Source: Thermogemmatispora sp.
Lineage (GTDB): Bacteria > Chloroflexota > Ktedonobacteria > Ktedonobacterales > Ktedonobacteraceae
Assembly: GCF_019683755.1 (NCBI RefSeq)
Contig: NZ_JADGHT010000006.1
Coordinates: 1 to 39,844, forward strand
Length of the DNA stretch: 39,844 nucleotides
Direction of reading: 5' to 3'
This document shows positions 20,779-24,306 of this stretch, piece after piece (position 1 is the stretch's first letter; each line of letters starts with the position of its first letter). Below the pieces are notes generated by a model. The model did not search any database, was not told the origin of the DNA, and worked only from the letters and a program-made list of their open reading frames with translations. Position numbers and translations under genes: made by a program.

Positions 20779-22299
20779 CTACTCGTTATGAGGAAAGCCG
20801 GGTGAGAGCGTCCACAGGCCGCTTTCGCCAGTAAAATGGCCATTCTCATCGTGCACCTCGAAGCTACCGGCCATCTGACTGCCCACCTTGATCACGCCCT
20901 CAAAGACCAGAGCAGCCTTTCCTCCATAGATAGGGACCGTAAAATGAATCGATCCTCGGAGGTCCAGCGTCCCCGTGCAAGGGCCACTTTGGCCCAGTCC
21001 ACTAAAGAAGCCCGAGAAGCGTTCCTGATGCTGCTGAACGCGCGTCAGCGCCAGAGGGGTGCGTGTATTTGTCAGCAGATCCTGAACAGTGCCGACATAG
21101 TCGGCAAAAAGGGCCGGATAGGGATAGGCTGCACCTGCCAGCGGCACCTGCCCAGGAACGCTAGCTGTGGCATGAGCTGGCGAGACAGAGGTAACAGAAG
21201 AAGAGCGGCTGAGCAGCGAGCGTAGCGGGCTGCTCAGTCCCAGCGTTAAGGCACCTGCCACCAATGCCAGGAGCAGAGCCAGCACCAGACTGATGAGCAC
21301 CAGGCGGCGCTGTCGGCGTGGCTGACGGCTTGTCAGGGCCTTACGTTCCGAGAACAACTCGGTTGAGGCGGCCATGACTTCCAGCGCTGGTGTGGCTTCC
21401 TGGCGGCCAGCGGTCCTCTCTGCTGGCTCGGCCTGGGCATGGCTCACGAGAGAGCGCCAGAACTCGCGCACCCCAGCAAAGCGCTCTTGACTATTGATAG
21501 CCATTGCCCGCTGCAGATCCTCACTGACGGCCTCCGGCAGCTCGGGCACCAGCTCATGGGCGGGCCTGAGTGGATCACGCTCAGCCCCGTTCTGAAGCAG
21601 TAGCACGCGTTCAAAGGCGTCGCAGGGCAGGTGACCTGTCAGTAGCGTGTAGAGCGTGGCCCCCAGGCCATAGACATCGGTGCGTACATCGCTACGACCG
21701 TGCCCTCCGTACTGCTCAGGCGCCGCGAAGCCTGGCGTTCCCTGACGGAGCGTTGTCGTCATACCATCGGGGATATAGAGCTTGGCCAGGCCAAAATCAA
21801 CCAGTACGGCACCACGCCCAGCCGCAGGCACAATGATGTTCGAAGGCTTGACATCGCGATGGATAACTGGCGGCTGCTGGCTGTGCAAATAATCAAGCGC
21901 GTCGACCACCGGCTCTAGCGTCGTCAACAAGTGCACCAGAGGAATACGCCAGCCAGGGGTGAGGCGCCGCAGCTCCTCTAGATTGGCACCGCGGATATAA
22001 TCCATCACGAGATAACTACGCTGGGTGCGCACATCTTCAAAGAAGCGGTAGACACGCGGTAAGGCCGGGTGCTGCAGGCGCATGAGCAGGTTCGCCTCCA
22101 GTGCCAGGCTGCGCCGCTCGCGCTCAGTGGTCGTGATAACCTCCTTGAGGGCAAAGAGCCTGCCGGAGCCTCGCAGTTCCGTCACCAGGTAGACTGATCC
22201 GAATCCCCCTGTCCCCAAGCAGGCTTCGACACGATAGCGGGTCTGAGCGGGATCTTTAATAATCGACCCCGTCCTCAGCCTGGCCTGTGTTCTCTGCAT
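20779..22299 (-). CDS. Receptor-type Ser/Thr protein kinase (Hanks type)
   Basis: A 506-residue bacterial eukaryotic-like kinase. Glycine loop 'GTGGFGSV' (29-36), Lys52 ('ALKEV'), catalytic 'HRDVKPSN' with Asp149, 'DFG' with Asp168, and 'APEQYGG' are all intact, so it should phosphorylate Ser/Thr on partner proteins. One span lies at about 333-354, followed by a ~150-residue outside domain ending in a beta-rich part ('GTLDLRGSIHFTVPIYGGKAALVFEGVIKVGSQMAGSFEVHD'). This is not PASTA and not one I recognise. The ATG at 22299 is preceded by GGAG six bases upstream and a consensus promoter (22345-22373). A longer frame starting at 22407 lies upstream of that promoter and is rejected. It is divergent from a surface protein/sortase pair. 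Confidence 0.93.
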   Translation of the reverse strand: MQRTQARLRTGSIIKDPAQTRYRVEACLGTGGFGSVYLVTELRGSGRLFALKEVITTTERERRSLALEANLLMRLQHPALPRVYRFFEDVRTQRSYLVMDYIRGANLEELRRLTPGWRIPLVHLLTTLEPVVDALDYLHSQQPPVIHRDVKPSNIIVPAAGRGAVLVDFGLAKLYIPDGMTTTLRQGTPGFAAPEQYGGHGRSDVRTDVYGLGATLYTLLTGHLPCDAFERVLLLQNGAERDPLRPAHELVPELPEAVSEDLQRAMAINSQERFAGVREFWRSLVSHAQAEPAERTAGRQEATPALEVMAASTELFSERKALTSRQPRRQRRLVLISLVLALLLALVAGALTLGLSSPLRSLLSRSSSVTSVSPAHATASVPGQVPLAGAAYPYPALFADYVGTVQDLLTNTRTPLALTRVQQHQERFSGFFSGLGQSGPCTGTLDLRGSIHFTVPIYGGKAALVFEGVIKVGSQMAGSFEVHDENGHFTGESGLWTLSPGFPHNE

Positions 22300-22722
22300 C
22301 GCAGACTCCAGCTTATCGACACGCTTGTAGACGATACTTGCTTCATTATACGGGCTGATCGATAGATCAACAAGAGTTATGCAAGTGACCAGCTCATCAG
22401 CGTTCATATACCGATGTCAGCACGGTGAGATGAGTGGTGCGACAGCTTGATTGATAAGCTGATCATTGTCGCGATGACAGGCTCTCCTCTTTTGCTCCGT
22501 CAGCTTGCTCATTTCCACAAGAGGGGGTTAGTCTCTTCTCCTGCTCGCTGCGTGGGAGCCTAGCCGTCCGGTACCACGCTCTGGACAGGAGAGATACCAG
22601 CCAGACTGACTGCTGTCACTACTTTGTCTTACCTTTAACTATCTTTGTTCGTTCTAACAGCGGAAAGCGTCTCCAGTCTTTCCAAAGAAAAGCTGGGAGA
22701 GGTTGATCTAGGAGGAGTGTCC
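22300..22722. other. Divergent intergenic region kinase / surface protein
   Basis: It contains the kinase promoter. CAGCTT / AAGCTG (22443-22448, 22456-22461) is a short inverted repeat. I could not find a good promoter for the plus-strand surface protein; TTGTCT (22624-22629) has no fitting -10. Confidence 0.45.
22345..22373 (-). promoter_or_regulatory. Promoter of the kinase gene
   Basis: On the minus strand TTGTTG (22373-22368), 17-bp spacer, consensus TATAAT (22350-22345). Predicted start ~22338, a 39-nt leader to ATG 22299. Confidence 0.7.
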
Positions 22723-23580
22723 ATGAGAAATAGCGCGCATCGCTACCTCCAGCCGGGCAGTTTTCTGCCGCTCATGTTTATGGTGTTCTGGCTTATTTCA
22801 CTGGGGTGGATGCCAGGCCCCGGCGCCAACGCGAAGGCCGAGGCTGCTCCCTCAGCTTTCGTGCGGATTATGCACGCTTCACCCGATATCGGGGTGGCTG
22901 ACATTTTCCTCGACGGGCAACGTGCTCTGAGCAATTTCCAGTTTGGCACGGTAACCGACTACCTGGCTATTCCACCGGGGCCACATAAGGTACAGGTGGC
23001 CGTAATCGGTAAGGGAGCCAATGCCGCGGTGATTACGCAGACACTCTCGGTAGAGCCAGGCTTTGCCTATACGGTGGCAGCCATCGGCCTCCAGGCCACC
23101 GGCTTGTCGCTAGTGGTTTTTAAGGAGGATAATAGTCTGGTGACTGGCAAGGCGAAGCTACGCTTCTATCATCTTTCTCCCGCAAGTGGACCGGCAACCT
23201 TGTTAGTCAACGGGGCTCCTCTGATTAGAGATCTGGGCTATCTGCAGGCCAGTAATTATACACTGCTGACCCCAGGTCGCTATACTTTTGATGTGGATTT
23301 GACTCAGAAGGACATCTCTCAGCAGGTGACACTAGAGGTTCCAGCGAATCAGATTACAAGTATTTTCAGCATTGGCCTCCCAGCCGGACTACCGAAACTG
23401 GAGCTGGTGACGCGCCAGGTAGCGGGTACTCCCGGTTTACCGGACACGGGAAGCGATCCGTACGCCTCTCTTTCTAATGCTAATGAAGGGGGCGTACCGC
23501 TGGCCCTGCCCCTCTCCCTGACACTCCTGTTGCTGGTAGTCGGCGCTTCATCGGCCTTTGTCTTGCGCAGTCGCCGCTGA
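22723..23580 (+). CDS. DUF4397 surface protein with LPDTG sorting signal
   Basis: A 285-residue exported protein. The signal-peptide-like N-terminus (~1-40) has a hydrophobic core 'FLPLMFMVFWLISLGW'. Then two DUF4397-type units follow ('VRIMHASPDIGVADIFLDGQRALSNFQFGTVTDYLAIPPGPHKVQV', then 'KLRFYHLSPASGPATLLVNGAPLIRDLGYLQASNYTLLTPGRYTFDV'). A C-terminal sorting signal consists of LPDTG (239-243), a 16-residue linker, a hydrophobic span (~261-281) and RSRR. LPxTG proteins are cut between T and G and linked to the wall or to a lipid precursor by sortase. A sortase gene starts 57 bases later. ATG at 22723 follows AGGAGGAG; longer in-frame starts lack it. The linker between LPDTG and the span is longer than in firmicute LPxTG proteins. 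Confidence 0.88.
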   Translation: MRNSAHRYLQPGSFLPLMFMVFWLISLGWMPGPGANAKAEAAPSAFVRIMHASPDIGVADIFLDGQRALSNFQFGTVTDYLAIPPGPHKVQVAVIGKGANAAVITQTLSVEPGFAYTVAAIGLQATGLSLVVFKEDNSLVTGKAKLRFYHLSPASGPATLLVNGAPLIRDLGYLQASNYTLLTPGRYTFDVDLTQKDISQQVTLEVPANQITSIFSIGLPAGLPKLELVTRQVAGTPGLPDTGSDPYASLSNANEGGVPLALPLSLTLLLLVVGASSAFVLRSRR

Positions 23581-23596
23581 GCACCGTTCTCAGCGG
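23574..23596 (+). terminator. Hairpin across the surface protein stop codon
   Basis: A perfect 8-bp stem CCGCTGAG / CTCAGCGG (23574-23581, 23589-23596) with a 7-nt loop contains the stop codon and is followed by TGGGTTTGC. It may attenuate transcription into the sortase gene, giving more substrate than enzyme. Confidence 0.42.
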
Positions 23597-23637
23597 TGGG
23601 TTTGCGAGTAGCCGCAAAGCCAGGCAGAAGGTTCAGG

Positions 23638-24306
23638 ATGCCAGCGCGAGCAGGAGAGCACTTTCAGCGAGGGCAGGCACGAAGTAGCTGGAAGGTGCTG
23701 GGCTGGGTCGTCGTCGTGCTAGTGTGGTCGCTGTTAATCGCTGGCTGTCACCAGCCCAAGACGGCGGCCACTCAGGTGCGCGATGGCAAACCATCGCCGA
23801 GCAGAGAGGCCTGGCTACCTGATCTCTCTCCCCAGAGAGGGAGTAGACAGGCGCCCGGACAGCCCCTGCATCTGCGCATTCCAGCCATTGGCGTCGATGC
23901 CGCCATCGAGCCGGTAGGGGTGACGACCAGCGGCGAGCTAGCGGTACCGGCACGTCAGCCCTGGGACGCTGTGGGCTGGTATCAGCTCGGCCCGCGCCCC
24001 GGTGAGCGCGGTAGCGCCGTTATCGATGGTCACCTCGACCGTCCAGGAGGGGCCCCGGCTGTTTTCTGGCGCTTGCGCGAGCTGCAGCCAGGCTCGCTTG
24101 TCCAGGTCCTCGATACGCAGGGGCAATGGTGGTCTTTCCGGGTGCGTGCCCTGGCCTTCTACCCGCCAGCGCAGGCCCCGCTGCAGCAGATCTTTGCGGA
24201 TACGAGTGGCCACTACCTTAATTTGATCACCTGCGCCGGCGACTGGATCGCCAGTCAGCATCAGACACGTCTGCGCCTCGTTGTCTATACAACGCTGATC
24301 AGCTAG
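23638..24306 (+). CDS. Sortase (class D/E/F-like), with lipobox-like N-terminus
   Basis: A 222-residue transpeptidase. The core has 'IPAIGVDAAIEPVGVTTSGELAVP' (about 80-105), catalytic His132 in 'AVIDGHLD', catalytic Cys199 in 'LITCAGDW' and Arg211 in 'QTRLRLVVY', the full sortase triad. The N-terminus is a hydrophobic segment (~20-36) ending 'LLIAGC', with Cys37, which fits a lipoprotein lipobox (I-A-G-C); it may therefore be lipid-anchored rather than membrane-spanning. ATG at 23638 follows AGAAGG six bases upstream. The gene lies 57 bases after the LPDTG protein gene, its probable substrate. It has no further sortase-associated genes nearby. The class cannot be fixed by eye. Confidence 0.9.
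   Translation: MPARAGEHFQRGQARSSWKVLGWVVVVLVWSLLIAGCHQPKTAATQVRDGKPSPSREAWLPDLSPQRGSRQAPGQPLHLRIPAIGVDAAIEPVGVTTSGELAVPARQPWDAVGWYQLGPRPGERGSAVIDGHLDRPGGAPAVFWRLRELQPGSLVQVLDTQGQWWSFRVRALAFYPPAQAPLQQIFADTSGHYLNLITCAGDWIASQHQTRLRLVVYTTLIS

Follow-up and report, generated by a model that had tools for sequence, protein, structure and literature searches.

Two adjacent forward-strand genes of a Thermogemmatispora metagenome assembly (contig C341, 39,844 nt, the window) probably form a surface-display cassette in which a lipid-anchored sortase is dedicated to a single DUF4397 surface protein. Thermogemmatispora is a thermophilic soil bacterium, and the nearest named relatives of this genome are T. 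tikiterensis, T. aurantia and T. carboxidivorans.

The DUF4397 surface protein

The upstream gene (22723–23580, + strand), preceded by a Shine-Dalgarno sequence read as AGGAGG (22710–22715), encodes a 285-aa protein consisting of a signal peptide, two beta domains, the motif LPDTG, a membrane span and the tail RSRR. Residues 45–234 (22855–23424) match PF14344 as two repeats (E 2.4e-37 in the profile search) and form two beta-sandwich domains in the AlphaFold model. The sorting motif LPDTG (residues 239–243; 23437–23451) is followed by SDPYASLSNANEGGVP (16 residues), and then by the C-terminal span and basic tail (23500–23577), which were recognized from both the sequence and the model. The original prediction had described exactly this arrangement of motif, 16-residue linker, span and RSRR, and it was borne out. 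In the model, LPDTG lies within a disordered stretch (residues 235–260) that separates the two beta domains from a terminal helix (residues 262–284). Since Thr242 is invariant and Gly243 nearly so across the 22 DUF4397 partners compared, LPDTG is not a chance string. The protein has the anatomy of an LPxTG substrate, with N-terminal signal, LPxTG, span and basic tail. Among solved folds, the model comes nearest to the extracellular domains of PepT1/PepT2 and to AlgF domains; this likeness suggests that the DUF4397 protein may be a binding or structural module, and points to no specific function. Directly upstream of the DUF4397 gene, two congeners carry a pentapeptide-repeat membrane gene.

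The sortase gene and its class

The downstream gene (23638–24306, + strand) encodes a class-F-like sortase. Its frame is open from a GTG at 23596, and the preferred start is the ATG at 23638, from which the residues are numbered. A probable ribosome-binding site, AGAAGG (23626–23631), is located six bases upstream of this ATG, which makes a start downstream of Cys37 very unlikely; such a start was rejected in favor of ATG 23638 with its better ribosome site. The deduced protein begins with a predicted type II signal peptide of 36 residues ending in SLLIAG (23638–23745; assigned from sequence), followed by the lipobox Cys37 (TGT, 23746–23748), which is the predicted lipidation site and mature N-terminus, a poorly ordered linker of low pLDDT (23749–23871) connecting the putative lipid anchor to the catalytic domain, and the catalytic domain itself (23872–24297). 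This domain matches PF04203 (E 3e-18; 66 bits against a cut-off of 26.6), and Foldseek aligned the sortase model with solved sortases at an E value of about 1e-9.

The catalytic residues had been named earlier as His132, Cys199 and Arg211. His132 (24031–24033) and Cys199 (24232–24234, in LITC) are indeed invariant in the alignment, but Arg211 (R225 when counted from GTG 23596) corresponds to Gln in the orthologues of all five congeners. The invariant arginine is Arg213 (24274–24276; R227 from GTG 23596), which replaces it. Domain, fold and the conserved His/Cys/Arg confirm that the gene product is a member of the sortase superfamily.

Among the sortase classes, class F gave the best match (NF033748, 125 bits over 148 positions), compared with 30.5 bits for class E and 27 bits for GN. 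The curated cut-off of NF033748 (166 bits) lies above the score of the window sortase and of every one of 61 relatives. In addition, the enzyme keeps an arginine which in actinobacterial class F has been replaced by Asn (PMC6998099). For these two reasons, the enzyme is described here as class-F-like and is not assigned to class F itself. It resembles the class F sortases of Cutibacterium acnes, Streptomyces and Actinoplanes (SrtF) in its active-site His and Cys and in its location, as these sortases are often encoded one gene after a secreted protein; in Actinoplanes, for example, the genes next to srtF1 and srtF4 encode proteins that combine a signal peptide with a span and a basic tail (PMC13251363). 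It differs from the sampled actinobacterial class F sortases, which have a transmembrane anchor, by its lipobox, and no lipobox was found in the plasmid-borne sortases among them. Two plasmid class F sortases of Streptomycetaceae (L159 and L164) are encoded directly after DUF4331 proteins, a family that may thus supply substrates of the actinobacterial class F enzymes. A similar arrangement is known from Thermomicrobium roseum (RefSeq TRD_RS12585 / TRD_RS14000), in which an annotated DUF4397 gene is also followed by one annotated as a class F sortase; there, however, the sorting motif is degenerate and the sortase N-terminus is of the transmembrane type and lacks a lipobox.

Evidence for a lipobox

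Cys37 is predicted from the sequence to be lipidated. The string LLIAGC noted originally at the sortase N-terminus is present, and its core matches PS51257. Like the substrates of Lgt and LspA, the protein has a lipobox with Gly/Ala/Ser at position -1, a basic n-region, an h-region of about 16 uncharged residues and a polar linker after the Cys; unlike other lipoproteins of this kind, its cargo is a sortase. Conservation of Cys37, on which the prediction had been made to depend, was found in all 12 Thermogemmatispora sortases (six genomes with two paralogues each), and most Ktedonobacteraceae sortases beside DUF4397 keep the Cys as well. Within the genus its codon alternates between TGT and TGC, and the rest of the signal region has diverged.

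The lipobox core of PS51257 was detected in 42 of 125 distinct relatives, compared with a mean of 4.7 and a maximum of 11 in 200 composition-preserving shuffles of the same sequences; together with the conservation, this led us to reject a chance origin. Two relatives with the Cys inside the span (L119 and L159) were left out by hand from the lipobox cases, and the doubtful lipobox VAYAC of L224/L225 was not counted toward the families given below. In the 55 lipobox cases, Leu occupies position -3 in 34 and Gly position +2 in 32, polar residues follow the Cys directly in 51, and the median length of the uncharged stretch is 16 residues, versus 20 in the helix-anchored relatives. Of these features, Leu at -3, Gly at +2 and the shorter hydrophobic stretch were not imposed by the lipobox pattern. 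In the model of the window sortase, the helix before the lipobox likewise comprises only 16 residues. Because its n-region is long and the Cys is at position 37, the window sortase falls outside the strict position rules of PS51257 (Cys at 15–35) and G+LPP (short n-region), with which many Ktedonobacteraceae relatives comply.

The N-terminus could instead belong to an ordinary type II membrane sortase, in which the hydrophobic stretch stays uncut and Cys37, although conserved, sits unlipidated at the outer edge of the membrane. Relatives lacking the Cys carry helix anchors, and the enzyme is thus compatible with this type of anchor; both the long n-region and the Asn or Asp at position -2 in three congeners are unusual for lipoproteins. 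Nevertheless, the Cys is fixed exactly where the hydrophobic stretch ends, Leu at -3, a small residue at -1 and Gly at +2 occur far above chance, and the stretch is shorter than in the helix-anchored relatives. We therefore regard an uncut anchor as unlikely, though it is the most serious competitor of the lipid-anchored cassette.

The machinery for lipidation was also searched for. LspA is encoded in the window genome, and each of the five congeners has Lgt; no Lgt was detected in the metagenome-assembled genome of the window, which is 89.6% complete. Since all five congeners have Lgt, this was taken as an assembly gap, and the missing gene was set aside as an objection to lipidation.

Pairing of sortase and probable substrate

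Besides the window sortase, the genome yielded only one other, which also follows a DUF4397 gene and has its own lipobox. The sorting motifs are specific to the paralogues: LPDTG in 6/6 pairs of the window clade and MPNTG in 6/6 pairs of the other. From the gene pairing and these motifs we infer that each of the two sortases is probably dedicated to its adjacent DUF4397 partner.

A search for further LPxTG proteins, proposed with the original prediction, yielded one more convincing case, namely the second DUF4397 protein. The degenerate pattern [L/M]PxTG-[S/T]DP detected the two DUF4397 proteins and one spurious match in the genome; the latter, on C519, was rejected as it runs into TGA right after LPITG. 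PF00746 (Gram_pos_anchor) was abandoned as a tool for this purpose: neither of the two DUF4397 proteins was among its matches, and a profile that misses the two known substrates is too insensitive here.

These searches bear on the possibility that the window sortase is a general housekeeping enzyme with an incidental DUF4397 neighbor. With two sortases in the genome, any other substrate would need to use them, and PF00746 is too insensitive to exclude such substrates; however, the pattern scan gave no other credible one, and sortase and DUF4397 gene remain paired in each of the two paralogue clades as well as in Bacillota, so that a housekeeping role appears improbable. In Bacillota, the DUF4397-sortase pair has a clear lipobox once (L186), where a DUF4397 protein with MPATG is followed by a sortase with LLFAGC. 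Among the relatives, a DUF4397 neighbor was found for 26 of 46 lipobox sortases versus 3 of 79 other sortases, an association that is not significant once corrected for relatedness, only five pairs being independent.

In Ktedonobacter sp. UBA10473 (L009, the same place as L091; 463–2349), DUF4397 and sortase are fused in one open frame of 604–629 residues, in which the sortase lacks its lipobox and the C-terminus carries an extra beta domain. Unless it is an assembly error, the fusion supports a functional link between DUF4397 and the sortase. A divergent membrane Ser/Thr kinase is encoded at 20779–22407 (- strand) of the window, and its outer domain (residues 437–526) resembles the extra C-terminal domain of this fusion in a pairwise comparison (E 2e-5), hinting at a possible shared surface ligand or shared regulation.

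Proposed mechanism

In the proposed cassette, the DUF4397 protein would be exported by its normal signal peptide and, judging from its anatomy, held in the membrane by the C-terminal span. The sortase would be exported with a lipoprotein signal, after which Lgt would place diacylglycerol on Cys37 and LspA would cut before this residue, leaving the enzyme tethered at the outer leaflet through some 40 residues of flexible linker. Cys199, together with His132 and Arg213, could then attack the Thr-Gly bond of LPDTG, and the DUF4397 protein would be transferred to an amine, for which the peptidoglycan bridge is the likeliest site. In Ktedonobacter, the interpeptide bridge of the peptidoglycan carries an N-terminal Ser (PMC3236041); by analogy, Ser would be a candidate nucleophile, and a plausible amine, in Thermogemmatispora. 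That the pair instead polymerizes DUF4397 subunits into a fiber, or releases them, is very unlikely: it would fit the one dedicated substrate per sortase, as in pilus cassettes, the invariance of Lys145 in 20 homologues and the tandem beta domains of DUF4397, but no second pilin or tip gene was found nearby and no pilin motif was recognized, and Lys145 may merely belong to the DUF4397 fold.

Distribution and exchange of anchors

Sortases of the window type were found in 86 of 301 sampled Chloroflexota genomes versus 4 of 250 Bacillota genomes. Those with a lipobox occur in 12 family codes of the Chloroflexota (f1–f5, f16, f18, f20, f40, f41, f47 and f50), and the Bacillota cases include Lentibacillus, Brevibacillus, Paenibacillus and Chryseomicrobium. 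Within Ktedonobacteraceae, the DUF4397-linked sortases fall largely into lipobox groups, and a sister group, in which some genes are in tandem, has plain helices; Dictyobacter and relatives (L008, L015 and L016) in this sister group each carry two tandem helix-anchored sortases. The sortase tree, which is based on few columns and has many weak forks, requires the anchor type to change 18 times; at least five of these changes are forced by the starred branches.

On balance, we lean slightly toward the view that lipoprotein sortases represent a recurrent and overlooked way of anchoring class-F-like sortases, in which lipid and transmembrane anchors were repeatedly exchanged across 12 or more families of Chloroflexota and in several Bacillota, and which serves one-substrate cassettes whose lipidation may control where and when the surface protein is attached. 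Sortases are held by a transmembrane helix according to textbooks. The original statement that a lipid-linked sortase would be unusual is right when measured by this rule and by the literature searched, but not within the Chloroflexota, where the lipobox type is common. No earlier description of a lipid-anchored sortase was found in the open-access literature. In PMC1586193, 'lipoprotein sortases' is used loosely, of enzymes with protein substrates.

No physiological role is known for class F sortases (PMC13251363, PMC6998099), and in Actinoplanes the deletion of four srtF genes together was without phenotype. The conserved pair of one sortase and one putative substrate offers a concrete candidate substrate for a class F-like enzyme. 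A lipid anchor, if true, would break the transmembrane-helix rule, tie sortase function to Lgt and LspA, with globomycin sensitivity as a predicted consequence, and leave the enzyme without a cytoplasmic tail, unlike helix-anchored sortases; automated class and localization pipelines would then misfile such enzymes.

Lipobox sortases also follow a different secreted protein in Lentibacillus and Chryseomicrobium (L123, L128 and L156), one with MPDTG or MPKTG, a span and a basic tail. The protein of L123, the case that was checked, belongs to no clear Pfam family; its gene is preceded by an anti-sigma-factor-like gene.
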